Source of the DNA: an uncultured Methanosarcinales archaeon
GTDB taxonomy: Archaea; Halobacteriota; Methanosarcinia; Methanotrichales; Methanotrichaceae
Direction: 5' to 3'
DNA: 64,000 nt
Assembly: GCA_903871465.1 (NCBI GenBank)
Contig: CAIQHB010000046.1
Coordinates: forward strand, 1 to 64,000
Shown here: positions 4,652-38,666 of the stretch, in pieces
Position numbering within the stretch: the first letter of the stretch is position 1
How the letters are laid out: each line of letters begins with the position of its first letter
Position numbers and translations under genes: made by a program
The notes under the pieces: model-generated
The model's database searches: none
Seen by the model: the letters and a program-made list of their open reading frames with translations, nothing else
What the model was told of the DNA's origin: nothing

Positions 4652-5076
4652 TGAACGACTTGCTCCTAATTATTTAGATATTCATCAAGTATAAATTCCA
4701 TTGAAGCCTTGCCCTCGAATCTAACCGGATGAATAAGATAAGCAGACGCATGAACGCGATTGATTGGACATATCAATATTCTATGAGATACCTATATGTT
4801 TATTTTTCCATCATTTCTCCAAAGTTCATGGTATAATCCATATCTGCTATCTGATTCTTTCTGCTAATTTGATGGTACCATGGTTGGGATTACATATATA
4901 GACGATTTCATACACCAAAGTGTACAAATCAGTCTTATGCCTTTGATGCAATACGAAAATAGGGTATTCTTTGAAACTAGGCTAAAGGGATGAAGACAAA
5001 GACGCCAAAAGGAGACGACTGAGAGAATAGTGAGAAGAAGGGTTCGGATACGTCCCATATGGCGGCCTGCGACCGC
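4652..5076. other. AT-rich intergenic region without a supported gene
   Basis: The left end holds the promoter of the TPR gene (about 4660-4690). The rest is AT rich, with no SD-preceded ORF. A 64-codon minus-strand frame at 4864-5058 has no recognisable domain and was not accepted. Confidence 0.5.
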
Positions 5077-5745: not shown

Positions 5746-5831
5746 TTCGAAACAGTTTTGTTCAGGGATTATTTAGCGATTTTGCCGGGCAAAAAGCCTA
5801 TACCTTACAACGGCCCAGTTTATCACCTCCC

Positions 5832-7802: not shown

Positions 7803-7872
7803 ATGGGAGCTAAGTGCACGGTTTACACGCGATTCTTGATAATTCACCATAATTGGAATATCTGAGAAGATT

Positions 7873-8183
7873 TGCGAGTGAGGAGAGTAAGCCCCCTTCT
7901 GTTCCAGACGGCATTCAGCTTAGCGCCATACCCGAGCTTGGCTGGACGTCCAATTTTTTCAGCTCTATTTTGGCTTGCACCCACAGGGTTTCGCCGTTTC
8001 ATCCGCGTCCCGCGCGACCTCAACCTCTCGGCATCATCGCTTTAACGCGGTGCGGTCTCGTTTCTGTGCCAGAGCCGGAGCTCTCGCCCCACATCCTTTT
8101 AGGGATGTCTGTGTGTCCAGTGGTGGGGGGACTTTCCACACCGGCCGGAATTGGCCAGCGGCAGCCGCCCTTCCTCTCTCGCC
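7873..8183 (-). ncRNA. rnpB: RNase P RNA
   Basis: The minus strand carries the universal RNase P elements. GGAAAGTCCCCCC (8137-8125) and ACAGAAGGGGGCTTAC (7902-7887) are the two halves of the P4 helix, in which AAGTCCCCC can pair with GGGGGCTT. The ends pair as P1: GCGAGAGAGGA at the 5' end with TCCTCACTCGC at the 3' end, with one mismatch. The resulting RNA is about 311 nt, normal for a type A archaeal RNase P RNA, which matures the 5' ends of tRNAs. A TATA box (8205-8214) lies about 26 nt upstream of the inferred 5' end. Plus-strand ORFs across this region are antisense artefacts. Confidence 0.92.
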
Positions 8184-8204
8184 AGACAGAGAAAACCTCC
8201 AACC

Positions 8205-8214
8205 GGATATAACC
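8205..8214 (-). promoter_or_regulatory. TATA box of the RNase P RNA gene
   Basis: GGTTATATCC on the minus strand, centred about 26 nt upstream of the 5' end of RNase P RNA as defined by the P1 pairing. The agreement between the folding boundary and the promoter distance supports both. Confidence 0.7.
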
Positions 8215-8283
8215 TTCGCGGTCGCAGTTGAGCCCCGGCCTTTCGGGCAAATCTTTATCCCATGACCCGTATCTCTACTTTGG

Positions 8284-9054
8284 ATGGCCCGAGATCAGAG
8301 AGATTATTACTACAGGCTGGCGAAAGAGGAGGGCTTTAGAGCCCGGTCTGCCTATAAGCTGCTGCAGATAAACGAGAAATTCAATGTCATAAAGCGGGGC
8401 GACTCCGTTGTTGACCTGGGGGCCGCACCAGGCGGCTGGCTGCAGGTAGCCGAGAAGCTGTCGGGCGGGAAGATAGTGGGCGTGGACCTGGAGGGCATAT
8501 CGTACATCCCCGGCGTGACCACTTTCCGGGCGGACATAACAGCCGAGAGCACCGTGGATCTGGTGAAAGAAGCACTGGGCGGGGAAGCGGATGTGGTGAT
8601 CTGTGATGCCGCGCCCAACCTTTCCGGCGCCTGGGATAGAGACCATGCCATATCCGTCGATCTCGCGCGATCTGCACTCCAAATGGCCAAGAAGCTTCTC
8701 AAACCGCGGGGCAACTTCGTGGTCAAGGTATTCCAGGGAGATATGTTTACGGACTACCTCAATGAGGTTCGGAAGGAGTTTTCCACAGTTCATGCTCACT
8801 CGCCAGTGGCCTCCAGAAAGGAGAGTGCAGAGACCTATGTCGTGGCCAAAAGGCTCCTCACGGGACCGGTGCGTAAGGGCGATAGGCTGGACATCGAGAT
8901 CGAGTCGGTGGGCAAATCCGGTGACGGTGTAGCCATGGTGGAAGGCTTCGCGATCATTGTACGAGGATCGAAGCTCGGCGAGAAGATGCGCGTGAAGATC
9001 GATGCGGTAAAGCCCAATTTTGCATTCGCTGATGTCCTGGAGAGAAAAGATTAA
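8284..9054 (+). CDS. rlmE: 23S rRNA 2'-O-ribose methyltransferase RlmE (FtsJ) with C-terminal TRAM domain
   Basis: 256 residues. The FtsJ methyltransferase (1-190) has the SAM motif [18 protein letters not shown] and the catalytic tetrad K25, D108 ([10 protein letters not shown]), K148 (NFVVKVFQG) and E183 (SAETYVVA). It methylates the ribose of the conserved U2552-equivalent in 23S rRNA. Residues about 196-256 form a TRAM RNA-binding domain ([20 protein letters not shown], ending VLERKD) that bacterial RlmE lacks. An AT-rich motif just before the gene (about 8250-8260) could be its TATA box. Alba follows after 26 nt. Confidence 0.93.
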
Positions 9055-9080
9055 TAACCTGCAAAAGTAAGAGAAACGGT

Positions 9081-9371
9081 ATGGGCGAAGCTATGGAAGA
9101 CAATGCTGTGGTATACGTCGGTGACAAACCAGTCATGAACTATGTGCTCGCAGTTATGACCCAGTTCAACAAGCCAGTCTCCAGCGTAATATTGAAGGCC
9201 AGGGGACGCGCCATCTCTCGCGCCGTTGATGCGGCAGAGATCACCAGAAACAGGTTTATGCCCAATATCGTCGTCAAGGACATAACCATCAGCACGGAGG
9301 CCATCCCCAATGAGGAAGGCAAGACGGTGAATGTCTCTTCGATGGAGATAGTGCTGGCGAAGCAGGAATGA
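9081..9371 (+). CDS. albA: Alba DNA/RNA-binding chromatin protein
   Basis: 96 residues with the Alba fold. [20 protein letters not shown] leads to the nucleic-acid-contacting loop [18 protein letters not shown], which carries the Lys that is acetylated or methylated in other Alba proteins. The end [11 protein letters not shown] matches the final strand. Alba coats archaeal DNA and also binds RNA as a dimer. The 26-nt gap to rlmE allows co-transcription, though an own promoter in that gap cannot be excluded. Confidence 0.94.
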
Positions 9372-9454
9372 TGAACTAAGTTTATTGAGGTTCATCAATA
9401 AAATTCTTTAATTTAAACTTTAAAGATTAATTGCGGTCCCCCTTCCTTGCAGAA

Positions 9455-9466
9455 AATAATTTAAAT
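9455..9466 (+). promoter_or_regulatory. TATA box upstream of the phosphohexomutase gene
   Basis: AATAATTTAAAT, centred about 28 nt before the GTG at 9488. This distance implies transcription starting at or within a few bases of the start codon, a leaderless mRNA. Confidence 0.5.
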
Positions 9467-9487
9467 GGCAGGGCTCAATCGGAATTC

Positions 9488-10801
9488 GTGACAGTATTCA
9501 GAGCTTATGACGTCAGGGGTATCTATGGCACCGATCTTACAGAGGAGTTGGTCCGGCGAGTTGGCGAATCCTTCGGATCCTATGCCGGCGGAGGAAGTGT
9601 CGCCTTAGGCAGAGATACGCGGACCAGCGGTCCATTACTGCAGAAAGCTTTCCTGGATGGAGTCCTGACCACTGGCTGCGAGGTTCATAGCTATGGCATC
9701 ATCCCTATCGCCGTTTTGAGCTATATAACATGGATAGAGGGACTTAAGGCCGCCGCCTACATCTCAGCTTCTCACAATCCACACGAATACAATGGTGTGC
9801 GGTTCCGAACAGGCGACGGCTACGGCCTCCTTTATCAGGATTCTTCTATAATGAAGTTCTACCGGGAGGGAGGCTTTCTCTCCGGCAAAGGGATCAAAAC
9901 CGATCATGAGCCTGAGTCGGCAATCGAGAGATACAGGCGATATGTCTCTGAAAAACTAAACCTTAAGCGCCCCCTCAAAGTCGTACTGGATATGGGCAAC
10001 GGCTCTGCCTGCACTATGGTCTCCTTTTACCAGAAGCTGGGGTTCGACTCAATCGCTATCAACAACAACATGGACGGCCTCTTCCCTGGTCGCGGACCGG
10101 CTCCAAATGAAGAATCCTTGCGCCCAGCCTGCAATGAAGTCCTGAAAAAAAATGCAGATTATGGGGTGGGATTCGACCCCGATGCGGACAGGGGAATTAT
10201 CATCGACGACCTGGGCCGCGTTCTGCCGCCGGAGAAGGTTGCCATCATAATTGCCCGGGCCAGATATAAGCCCGGCGACCTAGTCATCTCCGGTTTTGAC
10301 TGCTCTATGATCCTGGAGCGCGAGCTTGAGAAAGATGACATAAAAGTGAAGCGTGAGAAGGTAGGGGATGTATTCGTGGCCAACCGGGTGAAAAATTCCG
10401 GTGCGGTCCTGGGTGTGGAACGCAGCGGCCACTTCTTCTTGCCGGAGTTCCAGTATTCCGACGATCCCTTTGCCATGAGCCTGGCTCTTGGTGAGATCAT
10501 ATCCCAGGGCCGGAAGCTCTCAGAACTCGCAGACGAGATTCCGGACTATCCCTACAAGCAGATAAGCATCCACCTCAGCGAGGATCCTGCTGGCGTTATG
10601 CTCCGGCTCCAGGAGACTCTGGCCAAAATGGTGCCGGATACCCTGGACGGCCTGAAGATCACTACGGATACCTATAGCGTCCTTATCCGCCCCAGCAACA
10701 CCGAGCCCATTCTCAGGCTATATATCGAGACGACGGGAGGAGATATGGCCGAGCTGGAGGAGCAATTCAAGAAGATCATCCACCAGGCTATGAAAGCCTG
10801 A
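9488..10801 (+). CDS. Phosphomannomutase/phosphoglucomutase family enzyme
   Basis: About 437 residues of the alpha-D-phosphohexomutase family. The N-terminus VFRAYDVRGIYGTDLTEELV is typical. The phospho-serine loop is ISASHNPHEYNGVRF, the metal loop GFDPDADRGIIIDD, the sugar loop GVERSGHFF and the phosphate-binding loop IRPSNTEPILRLY. It interconverts hexose-1- and hexose-6-phosphates for glycan precursors. I start it at the GTG 9488, where the family homology begins and which lies 28 nt after a TATA box; an in-frame TTG at 9431 would add 19 unconserved residues. The glycosyltransferase gene that follows suggests a role in surface glycan synthesis. Confidence 0.92.
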   Translation: MTVFRAYDVRGIYGTDLTEELVRRVGESFGSYAGGGSVALGRDTRTSGPLLQKAFLDGVLTTGCEVHSYGIIPIAVLSYITWIEGLKAAAYISASHNPHEYNGVRFRTGDGYGLLYQDSSIMKFYREGGFLSGKGIKTDHEPESAIERYRRYVSEKLNLKRPLKVVLDMGNGSACTMVSFYQKLGFDSIAINNNMDGLFPGRGPAPNEESLRPACNEVLKKNADYGVGFDPDADRGIIIDDLGRVLPPEKVAIIIARARYKPGDLVISGFDCSMILERELEKDDIKVKREKVGDVFVANRVKNSGAVLGVERSGHFFLPEFQYSDDPFAMSLALGEIISQGRKLSELADEIPDYPYKQISIHLSEDPAGVMLRLQETLAKMVPDTLDGLKITTDTYSVLIRPSNTEPILRLYIETTGGDMAELEEQFKKIIHQAMKA

Positions 10802-10934
10802 TAATTTTTCCCAGCGAAGGAGGAGTCAGGAAGGCGATTCACATCCGTCTTTTCGCTTCTTTTTTGCTAAAGCAATCTATTTAATGCGCCACATCCCATG
10901 AGATAATACAACCACTGCCAGAGCTGATCCATAC

Positions 10935-11846
10935 GTGAGCTACAAAGACGTCTGCGTTCTAATACCCACCCTCAATGAAGAGGAGTCCATCGAGCCCGTG
11001 ATCCGGGAATTCCGAGCCCTGGGCTACGAGAATATCCTGGTCGTGGACGGCCATAGCACCGATGCGACCGTGGCGAAGGCCAGGGCGGCTGGGGCACGCA
11101 TATTCCTTCAGTCGGGATCCGGCAAAGGTCAGGCCCTGAAAGAGGTCTTTGCCGAGATCGTTGAGGAGTATATACTTCTTATTGACGGCGACGGCACCTA
11201 CCTTCCCGGTGAAGCCGGCCGCTTACTGGCCCCTGTCCTGAATGGTCAGGCAGACCACGTGGTTGGCAACAGGCTGGGCAATGTCCAGGGTGGTGCTCTG
11301 AAGCGGCTGAACATGATCGGCAATAAGATGATCAACCGCTTCTTTGCTGCAATCTATGGAGTTCATCTCACAGACATCCTCTCCGGCTACCGGGCTTTCA
11401 CCACGGACGGCATACGCCTGCTGGACCTGTCCATGCCGGGCTTTGAGATTGAGTCGGAAATCACCATTGAGAGCGTGAAGAAGGGTCTGCGCATTATCGA
11501 GGTGCCCATAACCTATCGACCCAGGCCTGCCGGCACCAAGACCAAGCTGCATCCCTTCCGGGACGGCCTAAAAATAATTCTCACCATCTTCCGCATGGCC
11601 AGGACGGAAAACCCCATGTTCTATTTCGGCCTGATCGGCTCCTTCTTCGGCCTTGTCGGTTTCCTCATCGGCGTTCTTGTGGCCAGGGATTGGTTCTTCT
11701 GGCGCATAGAGCATGTTCCTCTCACCATACTGACGGCGATTCTGATCATTGTTGGCTTCCAGCTATTTCTCATCGGAATGCAAGGCGATATGATGGCATC
11801 CATGCACCGGGAGATGATGAGAGAACTGCACAGGAAGAAGAGATAA
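10935..11846 (+). CDS. Family 2 glycosyltransferase with two membrane helices, dolichyl-phosphate hexosyltransferase-like
   Basis: 303 residues. The GT-A domain begins VCVLIPTLNEEESIEPVI and has VVDGHSTDAT, the metal-binding LLIDGDGTYLP and DILSGYRAF. Two hydrophobic segments close the protein, at about FYFGLIGSFFGLVGFLIGVL and LTILTAILIIVGFQLFLIG. This layout matches archaeal AglJ-like enzymes that transfer a sugar from a nucleotide to dolichyl phosphate in N-glycosylation. The exact sugar is unknown. It starts with GTG; AGATAATACA, about 29 nt upstream, could be its TATA box. It follows the phosphohexomutase gene, which may supply its sugar-phosphate precursor. Confidence 0.85.
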   Translation: MSYKDVCVLIPTLNEEESIEPVIREFRALGYENILVVDGHSTDATVAKARAAGARIFLQSGSGKGQALKEVFAEIVEEYILLIDGDGTYLPGEAGRLLAPVLNGQADHVVGNRLGNVQGGALKRLNMIGNKMINRFFAAIYGVHLTDILSGYRAFTTDGIRLLDLSMPGFEIESEITIESVKKGLRIIEVPITYRPRPAGTKTKLHPFRDGLKIILTIFRMARTENPMFYFGLIGSFFGLVGFLIGVLVARDWFFWRIEHVPLTILTAILIIVGFQLFLIGMQGDMMASMHREMMRELHRKKR

Positions 11847-11905
11847 AAAATAATAAAAATAATAAAAATAATAAAATGGTTTTATGGAGCCCCGTCTTGA
11901 TCAAT

Positions 11906-14900
11906 TCAACGGAACTCCAGTTTGGACTCTCCTGTAGCCTCGAAGAGATACGCCATTCCAGGCACTAGGGTTTCGTTCTCCCCTAAATGAGTCCAATCCT
12001 CGCCTTCATACTTCCAGATGAAGGCCGAGACCAGTCCTTTTTCAACCGCTTCAGGATACCTGTACCTCTTATGGTTGGCATTGACTGTGACATTGCCCAA
12101 ATCCACCGTCTTGTTCACGGGCAGACCAATCATATTCCATCCCTTATGCAGGTCCAGGCGATAGGGCAGGTCGACGGGTTTGCCGGAGATCTCCATAGTG
12201 AAGTTGTCGGCGCTGTCTATGAGGTAACCCTCCCCGGGTTTGAAGCGAGTCACGTTGAGTATGCCTCCCTGCTTCATGCCGAAGTCCCATCCTTCGCCGG
12301 AAATTGTGAATATGCTCCGGTAAGGCATATCCCGGAGATACTTTTCTGCCGACGCATCTTTCGGATTCAGATAGACAGACATAGCATTCCAGCCAGCGGT
12401 CACATTGATCCGCTGAACCTGGCCTGGAATCAGCAAATACTCAACCTGGAAGATCCTATCTTCGCCAAGCCTGGGTCTGATGATGGGCCACATAACCTTT
12501 TTTTGCACGCCAACAGAGTACTCATCATGCCAGACCGATAAGCCGTTCTCCTTAACTACGATCTTGTCTGCATCCTTGGGCAGCAAGACCTCCCCTATAA
12601 TCGCTGGTGGAGAATCCAGATTTAGCTGGCCGCTGGAGCTATCTGTCTGAATCCAGTATACCCAATCGGTGGCGCTTTCGTTCGTCGGCACGATGGTTGC
12701 CGTAAGAGCCGTCCTGTTTTGGTCTGTGGTATTATCGATCGACACCTCAGTGGTGTAGGGAAGAGAGGGCGTTTTGGGCAAATTCGGCCTGAAGCTTGGA
12801 TCTCCCAGTATAACATCCATGTAGGATGTCTGATTGAGCATCTCTTGAACTGAGGAATCCCAGTATGGCAAAGGTTCGTCGTAATCAGAGAACGGTTTGA
12901 GATTTTGAGTCCCCTTGGACTTGAGCCTGAAGAGGTTATCGGCGTCCAATTGGGCCTGGCCCACAGTTGCATTCTCGAAGATCAAAGACTGATAGAACTT
13001 CTTGAAGTAGTCGTCCGACAAAAAGATATATGATAGAGCTGACTCCCCGATATAGTTTACAGCTCCCGCTCTTATGAAAGACAGGGCGATAGAATCCTCC
13101 AGATTCCCGGGAATATACATCCTGGTGCCGGTCACATTCAGATAGTATCCCTTGAGGTTCAAAGTAACACAGGCGGACGCAGTAGTAGTCTGAGGTGACA
13201 ATGTAAGCTCCTTCACCTGTGTGCCGGTGAGGTCAGAATCTGTCATCGACCAACTCGATAACTCCCAGGCATTCTCGTTGCCATGATGATCGAAGTGAGC
13301 AATATTCTGGCCGTTATTCATTTGCGAGATGACCTGTTGATAAGTGGCCTCCTCATAACGCAGATCCTTGACGAGAAGACCCGCCTCCTGCAGATAATCC
13401 CTTATGCTCGCGCCAATAGGAGCCTGTGGATAGGAGAGTGGCGGCGACGATATGACCAGACCGTTCTTCTTCCAGCTGCCGTTTAGCCGGTCATAGGCCA
13501 TTGTACGAGCAAGGAGCTGAGATGCATCGTAGACGGAAAGCCCCATGATTCGACCTACAGCCACGGTGCTGTAATTCTCATCGTCTAGATTCAATTGATA
13601 GTCCCTGTTGACCTCATACTCCATAACAGGCGTTAACTTCTGGATGAGACCGGTGGAGATGAAGGGTAGCGATCCGGGATCACCCACTACCATCAGGTAT
13701 TTGGGGTTGAGCCTTAGACCCTCGATCTTCTCATTCAGTTTCTGCTCCTCGTTCACTGGATCAATTAGCTGCGGGTCCAGGGATGCGTCCACCAGAAGAG
13801 CTTTGCGCGCTGATGCCGCTTGAGCCGCTACCAGCGACAGCCTCGGAACTTTGGTGTGGCTGAATGCAGTGATATTTAGCGCATCGATATTGGAGCGAAC
13901 GTCAATAGTGTAGTTCTTGGTCAGATCGCCATCAGTATCTATATTGAAGATCCATTTCCCTGGAGTCAGAAGCTGCACCCTCAAATCATAAAGCCTATCC
14001 GGCTCGATCTTTGCGATCTTGACACTGCCAGTTCTCTTGTCCGGGCTGTAGAGGTTGAGGGCAGTGTAGCTGGAGTCCCGGTCAAGGTTCCAGGATATGT
14101 TCGTCCTACCTGAGTAGATCCAGGTAGGATAAGTCAGATTTATAACCGGCGAGTCGTCCACGTTCTCCAGAGTATGATTATAGGAAAACCCCTCGTAAGC
14201 TGCCGTGGCTCCTGTGTCCAGTCGCTGTGACCAGCCGGAATCCATGGGATACATCAATTCTACTTCGATATTCAAGCTGGCGGACTTGCCGGGGTCAAGT
14301 TTGTTCAGGTTCCATCTGAGCAAAGACCCATTGAGGAACGCCGTGGTGGCAACAGACGGCTGCCCGCTATACGGATCGGTGACATTCACCACACCAGTGC
14401 CGAACCCGGGCAACTTTATGAATCGTCCCATAGGGAAGATATCCAGCAATCGCACGCCTTTCAGCTCATCTTTGCCTGTGTTGCTCATGGTCACATTGAG
14501 CCTGACGATCGCTCCCTGTTCCTCAGCGGGTACCTGGCTGGGGCTCATTTCGGTTCTTACAAGGAGATCCTCGACCAATGCGCGCACAACTTTGGGATAA
14601 GGCGCTGGCGGCAGAAGCGAGAGATCATGAGAGTTGGTAAAGACTATCATAGTCGGGCTCTCGCCCCGTTCTTTCATCTGCTGAACTAAAAATTCGCCAT
14701 TGCCGTCAATGAGAGTGATATTCATCCGGCTCAGGTTCTGTCGAACAGCCTCTGAGATCGGACCCAATGTTACTGCCTCTTTGGACCCGAGGCGCAACAA
14801 TGCGGCTTTGGTGTCTCCCGGTAGCACGCCTCCCACATATAGAATCGGCCAATTCAAATAAGAGGCAATGGGTGCAGCAGAGAGTGCCACGCTATAGTTC

Positions 14901-16249
14901 TCTCCCACGATTACGGCTCCAGGCGAACTCTTCCAGCGCCGGCTTATCTTTTCAGCCATCTCAATGCTATTGTTGGCGACTATCTTCGAATTGCTCTTCC
15001 AGGACACATTTCCTATTGCCAGAGTCGTTCCGCCTACCTGTTGCAGCAACCAGCGTGCTGCCAACGACGGCGGCTCGAGTTCCGACCAGATTGGCGTATG
15101 GACGACGTCATACTCAAAGGCAACGCCCGTTGCGCCTGCTTTTGTGAGAGCCTCGATGTATTGCACAGTTCCCTCCACATTCTGGGTCGAGAGGACGTAG
15201 CCTACATAGTCGTCGCTTAGCCGTACATAGACCGGCTTCTCGCTCATCCTGCATGCCTGGCTCACATCCTCGGCAGGTAGAGGAGAGATCAAGGAAAAGT
15301 CGGTGACCTTAGAGATCTCAGCAAAATTGTAGCCCTGGCTGCGATCGAATGGATTGTCTAAAGCTACACCGAGCTTCACTGGTCCCAAATCCGATGTAAT
15401 ATTTCGTGCATATTTTACAATCTGCATGAGCTGATCTTGCTTCCACTGGTTCCATCTTTCCTGGTTGTAACTGTTGGCATTGACCTTGGTGATGTCTATG
15501 CCGGTATCCTGATAGAACTTCTCCTTGCAGACATCGCAAAAGCAGTAATTCTCACTCTGGAAGCCAATTTTATAGAGCACAACGCCGTCGGCCTTGTAAT
15601 CATCAATCAGCGCCTCGATCTGATTGTAAAGATAATCCCTGACCTCCGGATTCACAGGACAAAAATAGCTGGCATTGCCACCTGTATTTGGATTGGGCAC
15701 TTGCAGCCAGCTTCGATCGATCTTGGAATCGTCAGGTAGGGAACTTGTCAGGCCGGCATCAGTCATAAGGGTTCTCTCAGCCTCGGAGATGGCTTCAATC
15801 TCGCCCGCGTCAGGCTTAGAAATAACTGGAATCTCCAGAGTTGCCGTAATATAGACCTTCAGACCGTCTTTGTGAGCCGATTCTACCAGAGCTTTGACCT
15901 TGTCCCCGGATCCGTGGATGGTTATGGCGCTGATGTTTGCAGCCTTGAAAGTATCAAGGATCGCCGACTCCCCATATCTCTCTAGATCGCTCTCTTCGAC
16001 CCAGCCGTTTCTATCTCCGGCCTGGACCAATTTAGGAAGGATCAGCATAGGCGTAACTTTGGTTTGATTATCCTGAGACCAGATTGCCAGGGGCGTGGCG
16101 GCAATGGATGCATGCCAATCGTCTGCACCAACCAGAATCACATCCTCTACTTCGCCCTTTACCCCTCTTGCCAGGGGTGCGTCCTCTGCCACACAAAGCA
16201 GAGAATTGGATATAAGTGCTATGAATAATAATATAGGAAGCAGCCTCAC
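11906..16249 (-). CDS. Very large secreted protein: TIM-barrel-like region, CWB2-like segment and gingipain-like C25 peptidase domain
   Basis: 1447 residues from a GTG (16249) that overlaps the upstream stop as GTGA and has SD GAGGTG. A signal peptide (VRLLPILLFIALISNSLLC) is followed by a region resembling glycoside-hydrolase-like barrels (YITATLEIPVI, then VRDYLYNQIEALIDDYKADG). Next comes a segment like the CWB2 cell-wall-binding repeat (VIVGENYSVALSAAPIASYL). Then come immunoglobulin-like stretches and a C25 caspase-fold domain with HFDHHGNENAWEL (His about 13282-13290) and TTASACVTLNLKG (Cys codon 13169-13171), matching the gingipain His-Cys dyad. The C-terminus has two GWN-type repeats (GWNAMSVYL, GWNMIGLPV). 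There is no C-terminal membrane anchor. Confidence 0.8.
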   Translation of the reverse strand: MRLLPILLFIALISNSLLCVAEDAPLARGVKGEVEDVILVGADDWHASIAATPLAIWSQDNQTKVTPMLILPKLVQAGDRNGWVEESDLERYGESAILDTFKAANISAITIHGSGDKVKALVESAHKDGLKVYITATLEIPVISKPDAGEIEAISEAERTLMTDAGLTSSLPDDSKIDRSWLQVPNPNTGGNASYFCPVNPEVRDYLYNQIEALIDDYKADGVVLYKIGFQSENYCFCDVCKEKFYQDTGIDITKVNANSYNQERWNQWKQDQLMQIVKYARNITSDLGPVKLGVALDNPFDRSQGYNFAEISKVTDFSLISPLPAEDVSQACRMSEKPVYVRLSDDYVGYVLSTQNVEGTVQYIEALTKAGATGVAFEYDVVHTPIWSELEPPSLAARWLLQQVGGTTLAIGNVSWKSNSKIVANNSIEMAEKISRRWKSSPGAVIVGENYSVALSAAPIASYLNWPILYVGGVLPGDTKAALLRLGSKEAVTLGPISEAVRQNLSRMNITLIDGNGEFLVQQMKERGESPTMIVFTNSHDLSLLPPAPYPKVVRALVEDLLVRTEMSPSQVPAEEQGAIVRLNVTMSNTGKDELKGVRLLDIFPMGRFIKLPGFGTGVVNVTDPYSGQPSVATTAFLNGSLLRWNLNKLDPGKSASLNIEVELMYPMDSGWSQRLDTGATAAYEGFSYNHTLENVDDSPVINLTYPTWIYSGRTNISWNLDRDSSYTALNLYSPDKRTGSVKIAKIEPDRLYDLRVQLLTPGKWIFNIDTDGDLTKNYTIDVRSNIDALNITAFSHTKVPRLSLVAAQAASARKALLVDASLDPQLIDPVNEEQKLNEKIEGLRLNPKYLMVVGDPGSLPFISTGLIQKLTPVMEYEVNRDYQLNLDDENYSTVAVGRIMGLSVYDASQLLARTMAYDRLNGSWKKNGLVISSPPLSYPQAPIGASIRDYLQEAGLLVKDLRYEEATYQQVISQMNNGQNIAHFDHHGNENAWELSSWSMTDSDLTGTQVKELTLSPQTTTASACVTLNLKGYYLNVTGTRMYIPGNLEDSIALSFIRAGAVNYIGESALSYIFLSDDYFKKFYQSLIFENATVGQAQLDADNLFRLKSKGTQNLKPFSDYDEPLPYWDSSVQEMLNQTSYMDVILGDPSFRPNLPKTPSLPYTTEVSIDNTTDQNRTALTATIVPTNESATDWVYWIQTDSSSGQLNLDSPPAIIGEVLLPKDADKIVVKENGLSVWHDEYSVGVQKKVMWPIIRPRLGEDRIFQVEYLLIPGQVQRINVTAGWNAMSVYLNPKDASAEKYLRDMPYRSIFTISGEGWDFGMKQGGILNVTRFKPGEGYLIDSADNFTMEISGKPVDLPYRLDLHKGWNMIGLPVNKTVDLGNVTVNANHKRYRYPEAVEKGLVSAFIWKYEGEDWTHLGENETLVPGMAYLFEATGESKLEFR

Positions 16250-23897: not shown

Positions 23898-26800
23898 ATG
23901 CCACAAGATTCCTCCACTCCACAGGGCTTCCGGGTTTTGGTGATAGTCTCCCGGCCGCTTGATCTGCAGGACCTGCCCAACATTGCCGACCAGTGGTCTC
24001 TGCTGGGTGGCCTGCGAAGGGTCAACGCCCCCGCCTTTCTCAAGATCCTCCGCCCACCCACCGTAGAAGGCCTTCGCGCTGAGATCCTGAGCGGATATGA
24101 CATAGTTCACTTTGACGGCCACGGCTCCTTCGGTGTGCGCTGCCCAAATTGCAGCGGCCTCAACCAGGCCGAGCAGAAAGAGTGCGGCCGCTGCGAGTGT
24201 CTTCTGGAAGGAGAGAGAGCGTTGGGCTACTTCGCCTTCGAACGGGAGGATGGGAAAACGGACGCTCTGGCGGCAGAGGAGCTGGCGGAGATCGTCATGA
24301 GCGCGCCGGAGCATCCTACAAAACTGGTCTTCCTGAGCGCCTGCGAGTCGGCCAAAGGTGGCGACACCGGTCTCCAGAGTGTCCTGCTGGCGAAGGGCGT
24401 ACCTGCTGTTCTGGGGATGAACGAGTCTGTCACGGCCAAAGCGACCATGGCTCTGGCCGCGCCCTTCTACGCGGGCCTGTGGGCGGGCATGACCATCATC
24501 AAGGCCTTCGAGACTGCCCGGCCCGCTCTGAAGCGGCTGGAGAACGGCAGCGAACTGCAGAAGATCCCTGTTTTGGAAGGACCGGGAAAGGAAGTAAAGA
24601 TTCTAACTGCCAAAGTCGAAGGAAAGGCCAGCTTCGAGGCCGAGCCGCTCTTTGGTCTCCCCGAGCACGAGTTTGTGGGCGACTATATCCGGGGCGATCC
24701 GCCCCGCGGCCGCAAGGCGATCCTCTCCCAGGCCATCGATGCTCTGCAGGGTGGAGAGAAGCTGGTCGTCCTCACCGGCCAGGGTGGCATTGGGAAAACC
24801 GTGCTCGCTGCAGAAGCGGCCCGGAGATTGAGCGGGCACTATCCGGGCGGCATCTTCTGGCGGAGCGCTGCCGACATGGAGCGGTTGGGCCTTAATGAGC
24901 TTCTGGATGCTTTTGCTGAAGTCCTGGGCTGGGAATTTCGAACTCTTCCCCTGGATGCAAAAAAGGACCGTGCTCTGAACTATCTGAGAAATTACAACAA
25001 TGCTTGTCTTCTGGTTGTGGACAACGCCGAGAAGATCGAGGATGCAAACCTCTGGCGTTTCCTGGAAGGCATTCCCGAGTCCTGCTCGGCTCTCGTCACC
25101 ACACGAGAGAGCCTGCATCGAGAGGGAAAAGAGATCCGGGTTACGGATATGGAAGATGAGGAGGCTGGGCGTCTCTTCATCATCGAAGCCCGTCGGCGTT
25201 CGCCCAAGTGGGGTAAAAACCTGAATGAGGATGAGATGAATTCCTTAACGGAGATCTCAAGCATCATGCACGGCCATCCTCTGGCCATCAAGCTCACTGC
25301 GGCTCTGGTTGGGAGCAGAAGCCTGGCAAGCATCAGGGATGAGCTAAGAAGAAATCCACCCCAGGAAGTGCTGGATCGGTTTGATGTCTCTTATGCGGAT
25401 TTGACAGAAAGCCAGAAAGAGCTGCTCGGCTGTCTGGCTGTCTTCTCCAGCTCCGTGACGGAAGACGCGATCAAAAAAGTGTGCATAAAAGAAGATTCAA
25501 AGAGTTCATCGAACTTGGGGTACGATCTCGGCGAACTGGTGAGGAAGTCCTTCTTAAGACGGGTTGAAGTCGAAGTCCAGGATGAATCGGGCAAAGATAT
25601 CTTGCTATACCGCTACCGCATGCATCCGCTCATGCGCCAGTATGCTGCCTCCAAAACAGGATTGGCCACGCAAACTTACCTCAGCCGTGCCGCCGATTTC
25701 TTCCTGACGTTAGCCAAATCGGATCCGAGCTTTGACTCCCTGGAACATGAACGTGAAAACGTCCTGGCGTGTGTGGATTGGGCATATGATATGGAAGAAT
25801 GGAAATTGGTTAGGGAGTATGCATGGTCTGTGGATTCCTATCTATCAACGAGAGGCTATTGGAAGGAAAGGGAGGAACTGCTACATCAGGCAATTAGAGC
25901 AACCCAAAAGCTGCAAGATAAAAAGGGCGTAGCGAATACGTTGCACAAGATGGGAAATCTGGCATACGCAACAGGTGATCTGGACAAGGCCAGGAGGCTA
26001 TATCGCAAAAGCCTCAAGATTAACCTGGAGTTGGGAGACCAAAGCGGTGTATCCATCACGCTTCACCAGATGGCGATGATGGCAAACGCCACAGGCGATC
26101 TGGAAAAAGCCAAAAGCTTGTACAAGGAGAGCCTCAGGATCAAGCAAAGGCTGAAGGACCGTATAGGTGTCGCCAAAACTCTGCATCATATGGGGATAAT
26201 GGCTTATGACAGGGGGGATCTGGACAAAGCCAGTAGGCTGTACAAGAGGAGCCTCAAGATCAAGCAAGAACAGGAATACAAAAGCGGTGTGGCCAAAACT
26301 CTGCATCAACAAGGAGTACTAGCTTATGAAACTGGAAATTTGGACGAGGCCAGAAGACTGTACCAAGAAAGCCTGGTGATCAAAAAGGAGCTGCGTGACA
26401 AACGTGGCGAGGCCATCACGTTGCACCAAATGGGAAATGTGGCTAATGCCGTAGGAAATCTCGAAGAGGCCAGCATGCTATACCAGAAAAGTCTCAAAAT
26501 CAAGCAGGAACTCAGTGACAAACGAGGCGTGGCCATCACGTTGCATCAGATAGGAAATTTAGCTTACGCTAAAGGCAATCTGGACGAGGCTGACAGGTTG
26601 TACAAAGAGAGCCTAAAGATCAGGCAGGTGCTAGGGGATAAAAGCGGCATGGCCAAGACGCTCCATAAGATGGGAAATATGGCTTATGACACAGGTAACT
26701 TAGAGGAGGCTTGGGGACTATACCAGGAGAGCCTCAAGATAAAAGAGGTGCTGGGGGAAAAAAGCGGCATAGCCAAGACGCTCCATAAGATGGGAAATAT

Positions 26801-27536
26801 GGCTTACGCCAAAGGCAATTTGGAGGACGCCAGCAGGCTATACAAGCAGAGTCTGGGTATAAAGCAAAAGTTAGGGGACAGACGCGGCGAGTCCATAACG
26901 AGGCATCAGATGGGAAATATGGCTTACGACACCGGCGATCTGAAAGAGGCCCATATACGATACACTGAATGCCTCAGAATTGAGCAAGAACTGGAAGATA
27001 AACGAGGTAAGGCCAAAACGCTGCACCAGCTGGGAAATATGGCCTATGCCGCTGGCGATCTTGTCGAGCCCAAAAAACTATACCAGGATAGCTTGAATAT
27101 AGAGCTGGAGCTGGAAGACAAGCGAGGAATAGCCCAATCCCTGCACAATTTGGGAATTTTAGCTTTCAAAAACAACGATCTGAAAGAGGCCCGAAGGATG
27201 TATGAGGAAAGCCTCAAAATCAAGAGGGAGCTCAAAGATAAACAAGGCGAAGCGATCACATTGCATCAGCTGGGAAATATGGCCTATGCCACCGGTGATC
27301 TGGAAGAGGCCAGAAGGCTTTACCAGGAGAGCCTGAAGATTGATGAAGAGCTGGGAGACAAACAAGGCATGGCCATAACTTTAGCACAATCTTCGCTCCT
27401 GGAGAAGAAAGCTGGCGACCTAGATAAGGCACGGGAGCAGATGGATCTTGCCAAGAAAATATTCCTAGAGTTAAATATACCTATTGGCGTTCAAACACCG
27501 GAATACTATGAAAGGCTGGAGAAGAAGGTACGTTAA
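23898..27536 (+). CDS. CHAT protease-like, NB-ARC (STAND) and TPR-repeat protein
   Basis: 1212 residues in three parts. Residues 1-225 are a CHAT (caspase-fold) domain with His75 in HFDGHGSFG and Cys149 in LVFLSACESAKGGD. A zinc-ribbon-like insert (Cys82, 85, 96, 99) sits between the two catalytic residues. Residues about 255-520 are an NB-ARC/STAND ATPase with Walker A GQGGIGKT (294-301) and Walker B LLVVDNA, then a winged-helix segment. Residues about 675-1194 hold thirteen 40-residue TPR repeats. The build is that of sensor-switch-effector proteins in prokaryotic conflict and death systems: TPRs sense, NB-ARC oligomerises, CHAT cleaves. Two small genes follow in the same operon. Confidence 0.93.
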   Translation: MPQDSSTPQGFRVLVIVSRPLDLQDLPNIADQWSLLGGLRRVNAPAFLKILRPPTVEGLRAEILSGYDIVHFDGHGSFGVRCPNCSGLNQAEQKECGRCECLLEGERALGYFAFEREDGKTDALAAEELAEIVMSAPEHPTKLVFLSACESAKGGDTGLQSVLLAKGVPAVLGMNESVTAKATMALAAPFYAGLWAGMTIIKAFETARPALKRLENGSELQKIPVLEGPGKEVKILTAKVEGKASFEAEPLFGLPEHEFVGDYIRGDPPRGRKAILSQAIDALQGGEKLVVLTGQGGIGKTVLAAEAARRLSGHYPGGIFWRSAADMERLGLNELLDAFAEVLGWEFRTLPLDAKKDRALNYLRNYNNACLLVVDNAEKIEDANLWRFLEGIPESCSALVTTRESLHREGKEIRVTDMEDEEAGRLFIIEARRRSPKWGKNLNEDEMNSLTEISSIMHGHPLAIKLTAALVGSRSLASIRDELRRNPPQEVLDRFDVSYADLTESQKELLGCLAVFSSSVTEDAIKKVCIKEDSKSSSNLGYDLGELVRKSFLRRVEVEVQDESGKDILLYRYRMHPLMRQYAASKTGLATQTYLSRAADFFLTLAKSDPSFDSLEHERENVLACVDWAYDMEEWKLVREYAWSVDSYLSTRGYWKEREELLHQAIRATQKLQDKKGVANTLHKMGNLAYATGDLDKARRLYRKSLKINLELGDQSGVSITLHQMAMMANATGDLEKAKSLYKESLRIKQRLKDRIGVAKTLHHMGIMAYDRGDLDKASRLYKRSLKIKQEQEYKSGVAKTLHQQGVLAYETGNLDEARRLYQESLVIKKELRDKRGEAITLHQMGNVANAVGNLEEASMLYQKSLKIKQELSDKRGVAITLHQIGNLAYAKGNLDEADRLYKESLKIRQVLGDKSGMAKTLHKMGNMAYDTGNLEEAWGLYQESLKIKEVLGEKSGIAKTLHKMGNMAYAKGNLEDASRLYKQSLGIKQKLGDRRGESITRHQMGNMAYDTGDLKEAHIRYTECLRIEQELEDKRGKAKTLHQLGNMAYAAGDLVEPKKLYQDSLNIELELEDKRGIAQSLHNLGILAFKNNDLKEARRMYEESLKIKRELKDKQGEAITLHQLGNMAYATGDLEEARRLYQESLKIDEELGDKQGMAITLAQSSLLEKKAGDLDKAREQMDLAKKIFLELNIPIGVQTPEYYERLEKKVR
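25919..27480 (+). repeat. Thirteen tandem 120-bp repeats encoding TPR units
   Basis: Each unit is exactly 120 bp and encodes 40 residues of the pattern K-x-G-x-A-x-T-L-H-x-M-G-N-x-A-Y-x-x-G-x-L-x-x-A-x-x-L-Y-x-x-S-L-K-I-x-x-x-L-x-D. Units differ in many positions but keep length with no indels, so they are an in-frame protein repeat rather than a CRISPR array. The even unit length suggests growth or homogenisation by recombination. Confidence 0.9.
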
Positions 27537-32520: not shown

Positions 32521-32538
32521 GTGATGAGGAGGATTCAA

Positions 32539-33009
32539 ATGCAAGTTGCAGTTGTGGGCGGAGGAGTTTGCAGCCCGGAAGTGGGCGAAACGGCCGAGCA
32601 ATTGGGCAGACTTCTTGCTGAGAAGGGCCACATTCTGATCTGTGGAGGCCTGGGCGGCGTGATGGAGGCGGTCTGCCGTGGAGCCAGGGAGGCGGGAGGT
32701 GTGACTTTGGGCATTCTTCCAGGCAAAAAGATGGATGCCAATCCGTATGTCAGCATAGCCGTTGCTACGGGCATGGGCCACTCCAGGAATGTGATAATAA
32801 TAGAGAGCTGCCATGCAGTCATTGCTCTGCCGGGCGAACACGGCACCTTATCGGAGATCGCCCTGGCCCTGAAGATGGACCGGCCGGTCATAAGCCTGAG
32901 AAGCTGGGACATTGCCGGCACGATTAAAGCAAACGACCCTGATGAGGCATTGGAGCTTCTGGAAAAGACCTTTCTGCATCGTTCGCAATTGGGGGAGAAC
33001 TCGATATGA
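32539..33009 (+). CDS. TIGR00725-family Rossmann-fold protein, LOG/lysine-decarboxylase-like
   Basis: About 156 residues from ATG 32539, with SD GAGGAGG 6 nt upstream; the longer frame to 32500 lacks this. The motifs are MQVAVVGGGVCSPEV, ILICGGLGGVMEAVCRGARE, TGMGHSRNVIII and LPGEHGTLSEIALALKM. The last is a variant of the LOG motif PGGxGTxxE, with Gly-Gly replaced by Gly-Glu-His. LOG proteins are nucleotide 5'-monophosphate phosphoribohydrolases; for the TIGR00725 branch the substrate is not established. The stop overlaps the next start (ATGA), which ties it to the CrtC-like and radical SAM genes. Confidence 0.8.
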   Translation: MQVAVVGGGVCSPEVGETAEQLGRLLAEKGHILICGGLGGVMEAVCRGAREAGGVTLGILPGKKMDANPYVSIAVATGMGHSRNVIIIESCHAVIALPGEHGTLSEIALALKMDRPVISLRSWDIAGTIKANDPDEALELLEKTFLHRSQLGENSI

Positions 33010-34343
33010 GATGCTATAAGCCTTGCACCATGATGATGATAATTATCTTCTTCTTTTTATCGGGCGCAGGGACAGCGGCTGATGCTGCTCCCAAGGACGA
33101 TGCCTATCACTACATGAAAACCGGCGTCAATGACCAACTCTACAATGAACTGTGGCGCTTCAATGGGGCGGATAATAATTCTCAATTCATGATCACATTC
33201 CTCCTCAGCGATCCGGAAAACCTGACATCTTCCAGAAAGATTCAGGTGCAGGCTATGGTTCTGCAAGACGGTCAGCTTCCACATCAAGGCACCCACCAGA
33301 GCCAGGGATATGGAGGAGACCATGACTCACCTATGTTTGAAATAGATAAGAGCGGCTTTTCATCTGAGCAAGTCCCGATCCCGAACCTCAAGGTTTGGGG
33401 CGAGGTGTTGGATGAGACCACGGGCGAGCCCATTGCCTGGGATCTGGTTTATCAGCAGGCTGCCAGCCCCTGGTTCTCCATCCCTGTGCAGCCACATATC
33501 GGCCATCTCAAAGGGGATTGGATGAAATGGCTGGTTTACATGCCTTCTGCCAATGTAACCGGCTCAATCACTGTCGGCAATAGGACGCTTAACATCGACG
33601 GCATAGGCTACCACGATCACTTTTGGGGTCGCTTTGCCTTGAGCGATCCTCAAATCACCTGGGCAGAGGCCTCAGAGCCCGGAGATGGTTTCAGCCTGAC
33701 CTTAAGCGAGATCCAGGGGGATGAGAGAAACGCCTTTCTGGGAATAAAAAAAGGTGGCAAGACCATCAAATTCTCAACCAAGCAGATTAAATTAAATTAT
33801 ACAAATGTCGTTTTGGATAATGCGACAGCAGTTATGCAACCAACCGGTTACAATGTATCCGCAGAGAACGGGGAATATACTCTTGATCTGGCAGTGGCAG
33901 TGCAAAAAAGCGTGCCAATGATGGTTGATTATCCTTTTCCAATGCCCTGTCGCCTGGACTTCCAGCAGTACTCGCTATTGCAGGGAACCCTGAAATCGAA
34001 ATCCGGCGAGGAATATAGCTTCCGGCGGCCAGGCTTCTCCGGTTATGCAACCGGGAGGCTGCATCCCATCTTTGGCAGGCTGGGAACAACGAATCTTAAA
34101 AACGCCGATCTCACACTCACCGCAGCCAATGAGAGGTCAAATCAGGTGAAGACGGCAAGAGTCGCAACCAACGGTTTTTACTGCGTGGATGCCAACTATA
34201 TCGATTATTTGGCCAATCCCACTGCACCATGGGTGTTGAATGGAGACAGGGTGTTGCTGGAAATGTTTGAAGGCCAGAGCCCGGGGAACAGCACGGTATT
34301 AGCCGTAGATTTGTCCAAAGATCGGCAGGAAGCGAACCTTTGA
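33006..34343 (+). CDS. Secreted CrtC/AttH-like (lipocalin-fold) protein
   Basis: 445 residues. A signal peptide (MMMIIIFFFLSGAGTAADA) precedes two beta-rich halves. The central motif GIGYHDHFWGRFALSDPQIT matches the GxGYxDHxWG signature of the hydroxyneurosporene synthase (CrtC) and AttH-like family; these have two lipocalin-like barrels and act on isoprenoid or lipid substrates. Cells of this kind do not make carotenoid by a full crt set as far as this window shows, so a different hydrophobic substrate is likely. It is coupled to the upstream LOG-like gene by 4-nt overlap and lies 9 nt before a radical SAM gene. Confidence 0.72.
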   Translation: MRCYKPCTMMMIIIFFFLSGAGTAADAAPKDDAYHYMKTGVNDQLYNELWRFNGADNNSQFMITFLLSDPENLTSSRKIQVQAMVLQDGQLPHQGTHQSQGYGGDHDSPMFEIDKSGFSSEQVPIPNLKVWGEVLDETTGEPIAWDLVYQQAASPWFSIPVQPHIGHLKGDWMKWLVYMPSANVTGSITVGNRTLNIDGIGYHDHFWGRFALSDPQITWAEASEPGDGFSLTLSEIQGDERNAFLGIKKGGKTIKFSTKQIKLNYTNVVLDNATAVMQPTGYNVSAENGEYTLDLAVAVQKSVPMMVDYPFPMPCRLDFQQYSLLQGTLKSKSGEEYSFRRPGFSGYATGRLHPIFGRLGTTNLKNADLTLTAANERSNQVKTARVATNGFYCVDANYIDYLANPTAPWVLNGDRVLLEMFEGQSPGNSTVLAVDLSKDRQEANL

Positions 34344-34352
34344 GAAATCCAC

Positions 34353-35324
34353 ATGAGATCATTTCCAATTAGCACGGCCGGCAAGGCCCTATGGCAGATG
34401 AGGATTAGGAGAAGACCTTTTGTCCTCTCTCATGGCATAAACGCCAGGTGCAACCTGAGCTGCAGCTTTTGCGAGTACTGGAGGAGACCGGGCAAGGAGA
34501 TGAGCACGCAAGAGATCTTCAGGATGCTGGAGGAGGCAAGCTCCTTTGGCATCGGCGTCTACAATGCCTGGACCGTCGAGCCTCTGCTTCGAGAGGATCT
34601 GCCGGAGATTCTCTCCCATGCCAAGTCCCTGGGACTTATCACCTCTCTCATCACCAACGGCCGGCTATTGGCTCGCCGGGCGAAGGAGCTGTCGAACCTC
34701 GATTACCTGTCCGTCTCAGTGGACGGAATCAAGAGCTACCGGGAGCTGCGGGGCATAGATCTGCAGGACACTCTGGCGGGCATCAAGGCGGCAAAAGTTG
34801 CCGGTCACGAGGTCCTCATGAACTGCGTGATTACGGCCAAGAATATGGACGAGCTGGAGGATCTGGTGCATCTGGCGGAGTCTCTCGACACCAAGATCTC
34901 TTTTGAGCCGCTCCACGAATCTTCCGGAATAGATGAGAAGGTCTGGGAGACGCTGGGAATCCGGGATCTCTCAAGGTACGAAAGGGCCATAGAGAGGCTG
35001 ATCGAGCTGAAGAGAGAGGGAGCTCCCATCATCAATTCCCAGACGTATCTAGGAATGATAAAGACTCTCAAACCCAGATTCAAGTGCCACGCCAGTGATA
35101 TTGTTTTGCATGTAGCATCGGACGGAACCCTGGAAAACTGCAGGGTTCACCAGGAGCCGCTGGGCAATGTCTCGGATGGAATAGCACATGTCTGGAAAAC
35201 ATCTCAGAAGAGACGAAAGGAGACGGCACAGGGATGCCAGGGCTGCCTGTTCTTCGGCTATGTGGAAAATAGCCTGCTTTACGAATTCGTGCCCGAGGTG
35301 CTGGCACATTACGAATGGATGTAG
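34353..35324 (+). CDS. Radical SAM enzyme with a SPASM-like C-terminus
   Basis: 323 residues. The radical SAM motif is ARCNLSCSFCEYW (CX3CX2C), followed by LITNGRLLARRAKEL and LSVSVDGIKSYRELRGID, typical of the family. The C-terminal part has further cysteines (FKCHAS, ENCRVH, GCQGCLF) that could hold an auxiliary Fe-S cluster, as in SPASM/twitch enzymes. It follows the CrtC-like gene by 9 nt, so the two are probably co-transcribed. There is no short precursor peptide gene in the operon, which speaks against a typical RiPP maturase. The substrate is unknown. Confidence 0.82.
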   Translation: MRSFPISTAGKALWQMRIRRRPFVLSHGINARCNLSCSFCEYWRRPGKEMSTQEIFRMLEEASSFGIGVYNAWTVEPLLREDLPEILSHAKSLGLITSLITNGRLLARRAKELSNLDYLSVSVDGIKSYRELRGIDLQDTLAGIKAAKVAGHEVLMNCVITAKNMDELEDLVHLAESLDTKISFEPLHESSGIDEKVWETLGIRDLSRYERAIERLIELKREGAPIINSQTYLGMIKTLKPRFKCHASDIVLHVASDGTLENCRVHQEPLGNVSDGIAHVWKTSQKRRKETAQGCQGCLFFGYVENSLLYEFVPEVLAHYEWM

Positions 35325-36538: not shown

Positions 36539-36563
36539 AGTACATTTAATGGTAGTTTATATT

Positions 36564-38666
36564 ATGTCAGATTCTTTCGAAGCAGTGGTAATAGGCTCAG
36601 GATTTGGTGGAACGATTCTAGCGCTATCCTTTGCCAACTCCTTTGCACCGGAAAATAATCCCAATAAGAAGGTCTGCATTCTGGAACGGGGCCAGTGGTG
36701 GTTCTCTCATGAGATAAATTTCACGCCAAAGGCGGCGAGAGCAGATCCCGAAAAATCCAGCAATATGCGCGAATATCTGGACGACAATAGTAAGCCCTAC
36801 CATTTCTGGGCCCATCCCGACAATGTGGAAGGGATTCTAAATCTCTTGGCGGCCAACCGGGCACTTACACCTCAGGGCATTTACGATTACAAAGTCTTAG
36901 GAAATGTCCATGCGTTAGTAACCAATGCCGTAGGTGGTGGTTCTATGATCTACTCCAATGTTACCATCGAACCGCCAATGGAAGTATATAGAGATTGGTT
37001 CTCAGATGAAAAAGAGGCAGCAAAGCTTCAGGACTACTTCAGAAAGGCCGAAAATTTTATAAAAGTAAATAAGATAGTCTCCAATGCAGGAATGAGCGCC
37101 AACCTCCTGGATAAGACCAAAGCCATGAAAGAGGCGGCTCAGGCCCTGATTGATAAAGGGAATAAGGATATCGTTAACGTAACTCAGATTGGAAATAAGA
37201 CATTGATCGATTTTCCGGTGGATCTTTCCATTACCGATATTCCCCCAGGGTTGATACCTGCCGACCTTCAGCAGAGGATGAAGAATAACGCGCTGACGGT
37301 TGCGGACATTGCGTCTCTGCCGGATATCATGGCCAAGCTCTCCCAGAGCAGCGTCTGCCAGAGACAGGGTCGGTGCAACCTGGGCTGCATCCCAGGATCA
37401 AGACACACTCTAAACAAGAGCCTTTATGATGCTGTCAAGTCCGGGAACCCGGCCAATCCTCTGGAGATCAGAGAGCTCTCCGAGGTTTACGACATTCAGT
37501 TTGAGGAAGGAAAAGAGTTCCCCTACAAGATTCTGTATAAGTTATACGATAAAATGAATAGCAGTTCGCCTCAGAAAAAAGAGGTCTCAGCCAAGAAGGT
37601 CGTGATCGCTGCCGGCACTCTCGGATCAACTGAGCTATTGCTGAAATGCAAAGCGAGGGGTAGCCTGCAACTGAGCGACCAGGTGGGCAAGAGCTTCCTC
37701 ACCAACGGCGACTTCCTTGGTTACATGACACTGGAGCAGAGGACAATAGACTCCACCAGAGGGCCCATCAATGCCTCCCATGTGGCCTTCAAGACAGAAG
37801 GAAAGGAGTTCACCTACACTATAGAGGATACAACCATATCGAAGATGGTGGCTCCGCTTGTCGCTACCATGCTGGAGCTTCATGCGCATGGGGCCAAGGT
37901 GGCAAATATGGATCTCCTGAAGGACGCAGAGCTTCTCATAAGGTTTGGTCTGAGCAGTTTGATTATGGACAATATCTCGACGACAACACTTATGGAGATC
38001 TTCTCAACGATGTGGAACGACCCCAAAGTAAGAGGTGTCCTCATAGACATTCTCCGGACCGGGACCGCCAGCGATGAGACTACTAGAAAATTGGTGGAGA
38101 GCCTTCTCACCTGGGCTGTCACTGACTGGGATAACCCTTATGCCTCCCCTGAAGAGAGAATGGCCAGGTTCTTCGTTTTCTCCGCCATGAGCCGGGGAGA
38201 GAAAGCCGGAATGGTAAAGCTCAAACCCAACTGGAAGGAGATGGAGGATCAAAACGACCTGGGAGAGAAGATCTTTGTGGACTGGCCTGCCGCCGAGAAC
38301 ACCGGGATTTTCAAGAGCATGGTTGAAGGCATGAAGAAACTGGCGGCCAATATCGAGAGTGGTGGCGAAGATAGAGTGTTCACGCCCCTGTGGAACTTCG
38401 ACAACCCCGAGGAGAGCACAACTGTGGTCCTCCATCCTCTGGGAGGCTGTAGCATAGGAAAGGATGTGACTGTGGGGGTGGTGGACAATCTTGGCCATGT
38501 GTTCAGGAACGATGGCTCATCTGATAAAAAGAAGGCTTATCCCGACCTTTATGTCATAGATGGGTCAATCATCCCTGAGCCTCTGGGCGTCAATCCTTCA
38601 TTTACGATCTCAGCCCTGGCGTTCAGGGCGGCAGAGAACATTGTAGGGGCCAAAAACCTTCCATGA
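36564..38666 (+). CDS. GMC-family FAD oxidoreductase, cholesterol-oxidase-like
   Basis: About 700 residues. The FAD-binding Rossmann motif is VVIGSGFGGTILALSFA. GGGSMIYSNVTIEPP and CQRQGRCNLGCIPGSRHTLN are typical of the cholesterol-oxidase-like GMC branch, and the end VLHPLGGCSIGKD with LYVIDGSIIPEPLGVNPSFT carries the active-site His and the FAD-contacting segment. The enzyme oxidises an alcohol, with FAD as cofactor; the substrate is unknown. The start at 36564 fits the homology and a TATA-like box, and avoids overlap with mtnA. Such enzymes are uncommon in methanogens, so acquisition from bacteria is plausible. There is no signal peptide. Confidence 0.88.
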   Translation: MSDSFEAVVIGSGFGGTILALSFANSFAPENNPNKKVCILERGQWWFSHEINFTPKAARADPEKSSNMREYLDDNSKPYHFWAHPDNVEGILNLLAANRALTPQGIYDYKVLGNVHALVTNAVGGGSMIYSNVTIEPPMEVYRDWFSDEKEAAKLQDYFRKAENFIKVNKIVSNAGMSANLLDKTKAMKEAAQALIDKGNKDIVNVTQIGNKTLIDFPVDLSITDIPPGLIPADLQQRMKNNALTVADIASLPDIMAKLSQSSVCQRQGRCNLGCIPGSRHTLNKSLYDAVKSGNPANPLEIRELSEVYDIQFEEGKEFPYKILYKLYDKMNSSSPQKKEVSAKKVVIAAGTLGSTELLLKCKARGSLQLSDQVGKSFLTNGDFLGYMTLEQRTIDSTRGPINASHVAFKTEGKEFTYTIEDTTISKMVAPLVATMLELHAHGAKVANMDLLKDAELLIRFGLSSLIMDNISTTTLMEIFSTMWNDPKVRGVLIDILRTGTASDETTRKLVESLLTWAVTDWDNPYASPEERMARFFVFSAMSRGEKAGMVKLKPNWKEMEDQNDLGEKIFVDWPAAENTGIFKSMVEGMKKLAANIESGGEDRVFTPLWNFDNPEESTTVVLHPLGGCSIGKDVTVGVVDNLGHVFRNDGSSDKKKAYPDLYVIDGSIIPEPLGVNPSFTISALAFRAAENIVGAKNLP

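Follow-up and report, generated by a model that had tools for sequence, protein, structure and literature searches.

The closest described counterparts of the exported protein considered here belong to the CrtC/AttH superfamily of two-lipocalin-domain proteins. Kievitone hydratase from Nectria/Fusarium (7a0q, 7a0t) is secreted and hydrates a prenyl double bond (PMC5805349), its substrate being a prenylated plant isoflavonoid. The carotenoid 1,2-hydratase CrtC (PF07143) relies on a strongly acidic Asp to hydrate terminal isoprene units (PMC4717167, PMC12402844); Ala mutants of its Trp241, Tyr266 and Asp268, as well as His239, are inactive (PMC4717167). In the structure of AttH (NE1406, 2ich), ligand mimetics occupy the N-terminal barrel and the interface between the domains (PMC2954199). 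Other activities of the superfamily include epoxide rearrangement (PMC6013536) and, as far as Foldseek entry titles and PMC11061730 indicate, cycloaddition or elimination. Reviews describe lipocalins as absent from Archaea (PMC8420045), and archaeal homologs were already mentioned in the AttH structure paper (PMC2954199).

The window analysed here, a stretch of 64,000 nucleotides, is contig C46 of a 3.13-Mb host genome from the family Methanotrichaceae (Methanothrix/Methanosaeta). It encodes a protein of this superfamily (CRT), preceded by a LOG-like gene (LOG) and followed by a radical SAM gene, with the following features:

32526..32532, + strand: Shine–Dalgarno-like GAGGAGG 5' of LOG, from the sequence
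32539..33009, + strand: LOG-like gene, 156 aa, SLOG family TIGR00725 / PF18306 (LDcluster4)
33006..34343, + strand: CRT, exported (predicted) CrtC/AttH-superfamily tandem lipocalin-fold protein, 445 aa
33006..33083, + strand: predicted CRT signal peptide, hydrophobic MMMIIIFFFLSGAG followed by an Ala-rich exit, from sequence and hydropathy
33522..33629, + strand: CRT active-site region, M173-K174-W175 through GYHDHFWG (201–208), from hhalign and PMC4717167
34068..34340, + strand: CRT C-terminal carboxypeptidase-regulatory-like beta domain
34353..35324, + strand: radical SAM/SPASM-like gene, 323 aa, nearest NCBIfam TIGR03961 (below cut-off)

The reading frames of LOG and CRT overlap by 4 nt via a common ATGA, and a 9-nt gap separates CRT from the radical SAM gene on the same strand, exactly as an earlier sequence-only reading of this DNA had placed the three frames. 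A bacterial promoter/terminator scan gave signal no higher than shuffled sequences, its models being bacterial and ill-suited to archaea.

Linkage of the three genes in Methanotrichaceae

The sequence-only reading regarded the three genes as one unit, proposed that they form a pathway producing a secreted isoprenoid or lipid, and held that lack of linkage in other genomes would speak against this. We searched 50 Methanotrichaceae genomes with each of the three proteins and detected CRT in 17 of them. A full LOG gene is found in 14 of these 17, and in 14/14 it lies immediately 5' of CRT on the same strand; the co-occurrence that the earlier reading suggested looking for is thus seen for LOG and CRT. 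The remaining three comprise two genomes without detected LOG (G030 and G032, 77–79% complete) and one with only a short LOG fragment located elsewhere (G003). Three close relatives show the same 4-nt overlap, there with TTG as the start codon, and the spacing in other genomes ranges from tens of bases up to ~240, while the genes flanking the pair vary from genome to genome. LOG and CRT are therefore a conserved two-gene unit of Methanothrix whose order is kept.

The radical SAM gene behaves differently. A full-length ortholog (57–78% identity) occurs in nearly all genomes of the family, CRT-positive or not, and in all 15 other genomes having both genes it is unlinked to the pair, lying on a separate contig or, in the near-closed genome G016, 1.4–1.6 Mb apart. 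Its neighbourhoods elsewhere have nothing in common with those of LOG–CRT, and the three genes adjoin only in the window. The protein itself is a radical SAM enzyme with additional cysteines, as had been noted: it matches PF04055 at 74.4 bits, the cysteines of its CxxxCxxC motif (C33, C37, C40) are invariant, and further cysteines are present at the C terminus. It is similar over its full length to the PTO1314 family (TIGR03961; E 1e-37), but the score of 129.9 bits falls under the cut-off of 306, and a structure search returned only generic SPASM/MoaA/viperin-type folds. The radical SAM gene is thus an unrelated, widely conserved gene that lies downstream of the pair by chance in this genome, and the three-gene unit is ruled out by its separation from the pair elsewhere. 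The same strand and the tight spacing here are what favours the three-gene pathway proposed earlier; set against the unlinked orthologs and the many genomes that carry the radical SAM gene without CRT, they leave that proposal very improbable.

In the genus, 13/15 CRT-positive and 3/11 CRT-negative genomes have LOG (Fisher p = 0.004, treating genomes as independent and hence ignoring shared ancestry and genome incompleteness). LOG also exists without CRT, as a rule in divergent orientation to an lhr-type helicase gene; it adjoins lhr in most of the examined family genomes that lack CRT. This arrangement raises the possibility, which we hold somewhat short of even, that the adjacency of LOG and CRT is an inherited neighbourhood, LOG having stood ancestrally beside lhr and CRT having been inserted behind it by chance. 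That CRT elsewhere in archaea is found away from LOG at the loci examined, and that a Methanophagales CRT likewise lies near an lhr ortholog, is consistent with such a history. It accounts less readily for the persistence of the pair, since in most of the 14 genomes LOG and CRT remain joined after adjacency to lhr has been lost, and for the tracking of LOG with CRT presence within the genus, with the above reservation that phylogeny is ignored in the p value.

Among the loci examined outside Methanotrichaceae, no LOG was found beside CRT relatives. The genes neighbouring CRT in relatives (DUF1003, transglutaminase, formate transporter, F420H2 quinone reductase and UspA-like genes) show no common pathway. 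The absence of linkage outside the family, together with the three CRT genomes lacking a linked LOG, indicates that the partnership is not essential.

The LOG-like protein and the cytokinin and carotenoid routes

LOG passes the family cut-offs of TIGR00725 (154.8 versus 106.9 bits) and PF18306 (154.5 versus 26.3 bits), and its nearest PDB entries are TM1055 (1rcu), 6y01 (deposited as 'p450 cytochrome, putative') and the molybdenum cofactor carrier 2iz5. It is accordingly close to SLOG cluster 4, represented by 1rcu and 2iz5, from which it differs in its pairing with an exported CrtC-like gene, seen only in Methanotrichaceae. Its motif reads ALPGEHGTLSE, with the Arg in GHSRN. The form PGEHGT had been flagged as an altered LOG motif; in the aligned orthologs the motif is PG-x-x-GTLSE with E, M, L, S, V or G at the third residue. 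Because this second Gly position varies across the subfamily, PGEHGT is an ordinary subfamily trait and was discarded as a functional signal. Two residues are invariant, the Glu of GTLSE and, ahead of it, the Arg of RN, and we take this Arg and the GTxxE Glu to be the catalytic residues of the cytokinin LOG phosphoribohydrolase.

These two retained residues and the family names are the points in favour of a cytokinin-like or carotenoid pathway, in which LOG would free a prenyl-adenine or CRT would hydrate a carotenoid. Against the cytokinin enzyme NF058542, however, LOG scores 38.5 bits, far under the cut-off of 300. In the host genome, neither a prenyl-adenine synthase (IPPT; control positive in 10 genomes) nor a phytoene/squalene synthase (PF00494; control positive in 7 genomes) was found. 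The absence of IPPT largely rules out the cytokinin route and that of PF00494 the carotenoid route, so that neither cytokinins nor carotenoids are likely substrates, the CRT substrate is not a carotenoid of the known route, and a pathway of this kind is highly unlikely. According to work cited in PMC9128505, hydroxyarchaeol synthesis in Methanosarcina involves a phytoene desaturase homolog, and that role is thus already taken there.

The exported two-barrel protein and its active site

CRT begins with a hydrophobic, signal-like segment from which export is predicted. An AF2 model built from 17 orthologs (pLDDT 82, pTM 0.83) shows two lipocalin-like barrels, and all 19 Foldseek matches at E<=0.001 belong to the CrtC/AttH superfamily. 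The top matches are kievitone hydratase (7a0t/7a0q, E ~3e-9), AttH NE1406 (2ich), the fungal Diels-Alderases Phm7/Fsa2 and a 25-phosphosteroid lyase. The exported lipocalin-fold protein with GYHDHFWG that the earlier reading described is therefore recovered, with a signal-like N terminus, a predicted two-lipocalin-domain fold and the motif at residues 201–208. At the level of sequence the relationship is distant: the window protein has no match to PF07143 or PF17186 at 0.1, and its relatives reach only E 0.003–0.0008. A PF07143 profile search of the host genome also returned nothing, and is uninformative because its controls were equally silent. Once secreted archaeal relatives are added to the profile, kievitone hydratase is found by sequence as well (E 1.6e-7), with D204 placed on its Asp.

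Kievitone hydratase, of a type marked by export and by cofactor-free hydration of a prenyl double bond, is the best structural and sequence-profile match of CRT. The two have in common the two barrels, export (predicted for CRT) and, in the motif region, a conserved Asp and Trp, whereas identity is only ~14%, the enzyme is fungal, its substrate is a prenylated plant isoflavonoid, and the aligned structure lacks the C-terminal beta domain of CRT. AttH shares the two-lipocalin-domain architecture at ~12–14% identity. Comparison by hhalign with genuine carotenoid 1,2-hydratases from photosynthesis plasmids (E 4e-4, probability only 34%) aligns W175, Y202 and D204 of CRT with Trp241, Tyr266 and Asp268 of CrtC. 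By contrast, the catalytic His239 of CrtC corresponds to M173 in CRT and to Met or Ile in its relatives; CRT also stays below the Pfam cut-off of the CrtC family, and its host is without a known carotenoid route. Two additional invariant histidines flank the acid residue (YHDH). In divergent archaeal relatives, H35, E48, W175, Y202, H203 and H205 are invariant and D204 and W207 nearly so. Glu replaces D204 in three relatives. The window copy reads ELWRF where most relatives have EWWYF and has lost the otherwise near-invariant W49; at this site it departs from the family, and its activity could be altered.

By analogy with these enzymes, CRT is most likely an extracytoplasmic acid-catalysed enzyme, or a binder, for an isoprenoid chain. 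In the mechanism we propose, CRT would leave the cell via its signal peptide, and the cleft between the two lipocalin barrels would serve as the reaction site, with D204 as a strong acid assisted by Y202 and the flanking YHDH histidines and with W175 stabilising the carbocation. D204 could thereby protonate or rearrange an isoprenoid C=C bond, in the manner of the carotenoid and kievitone hydratases. As substrate we would expect an isoprenoid of the membrane or the cell surface rather than a carotenoid; unsaturated ether lipids, polyprenols or methanophenazine, through its tail, are possible candidates. LOG may act in the cytosol as an N-glycosidase or as a binder of a nucleotide or cofactor, expressed together with CRT. 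We give roughly even chances to this combined reading, namely a conserved LOG–CRT unit, unrelated to the radical SAM gene, in which CRT is an exported acid catalyst acting on an isoprenoid and LOG is co-expressed with it; the different predicted compartments of the two proteins count against it. Of the secreted isoprenoid or lipid pathway suggested earlier, the three-gene form has fallen, and isoprenoid chemistry is possible for CRT in view of its fold and active site.

The main rival for CRT is a non-catalytic role: it may be exported as a lipocalin-type protein that binds or carries a hydrophobic ligand, or be a surface or sheath component that sequesters one. Ligand binding is common among lipocalin folds, and the ligand mimetics in the AttH structure (PMC2954199) fit such a role. 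An architectural or binding function is suggested by the C-terminal beta domain and by the fusion, in another archaeon, with a surface-repeat protein of 3906 aa, and the loss of W49 in the window copy points the same way. Retention of the Asp/Glu, Tyr, Trp and His cluster across highly divergent archaea is, on the other hand, what catalysis would predict, and we consider a purely binding role rather unlikely. If CRT merely binds its ligand, the finding would be an ordinary one.

About half of the orthologs have the carboxypeptidase-regulatory-like domain at the CRT C terminus, which is variable or absent in relatives; Asn/Thr-rich linkers interrupt it in two orthologs, and one has a BACON domain instead. 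In one species (G022) the linker is a tandem QSNLT repeat, and the CRT gene is apparently split at this repeat between the end of contig C136 (L030) and the start of contig C69 (L043).

Relatives in other archaea and further genes of the window

Secreted proteins related to CRT and bearing GYHDHNWG are found in further families of the class as well as in Methanophagales (ANME-1), Bathyarchaeota and Thermoplasmata. A still broader proposal, which we regard as improbable, is that an archaeal family of exported two-barrel CrtC-type enzymes hydrates or isomerises membrane isoprenoids by acid catalysis outside the cytoplasmic membrane and is coupled in Methanothrix to an SLOG enzyme that processes nucleotides. 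A CrtC-like active site retained in a conserved family of exported two-barrel proteins, shared by methanogens and ANME, would indicate an unstudied surface isoprenoid chemistry, on which the pairing with LOG provides a concrete genetic handle. The SLOG gene paired with an exported CrtC-like gene is in this respect a clue, modest but testable, to chemistry of archaeal lipids or of the archaeal surface.

The CRT-type C-terminal domain also comes after the lipocalin barrels of a Methanophagales protein. In a same-class relative, a 3906-aa ORF (L219, G076:C81:19000-38000, minus strand, 4441–16158) encodes a surface-type protein with a long Asn-rich (NosD-like) repeat, near the end of which stand the lipocalin module of CRT and its C-terminal domain. 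A 480-aa Methanophagales relative of CRT (L085, 354–7603) has an lhr helicase ortholog close by (39.5% over 949 aa); as lhr also adjoins LOG in Methanothrix, this hints at an old neighbourhood. Several Methanotrichaceae genomes encode a second, more distant CrtC-like protein of ~400–430 aa, seen as weak second CRT matches at locus L022 and in G004, G021, G025 and G036.

Elsewhere in the window, positions 23898–27536 encode a 1212-aa CHAT peptidase + NB-ARC + TPR protein, a candidate STAND-type conflict or defence protein. Positions 36561–38666 encode a GMC oxidoreductase, weakly cholesterol-oxidase-like, whose gene is flanked by those for methylthioribose-phosphate isomerase and methylthioadenosine phosphorylase.
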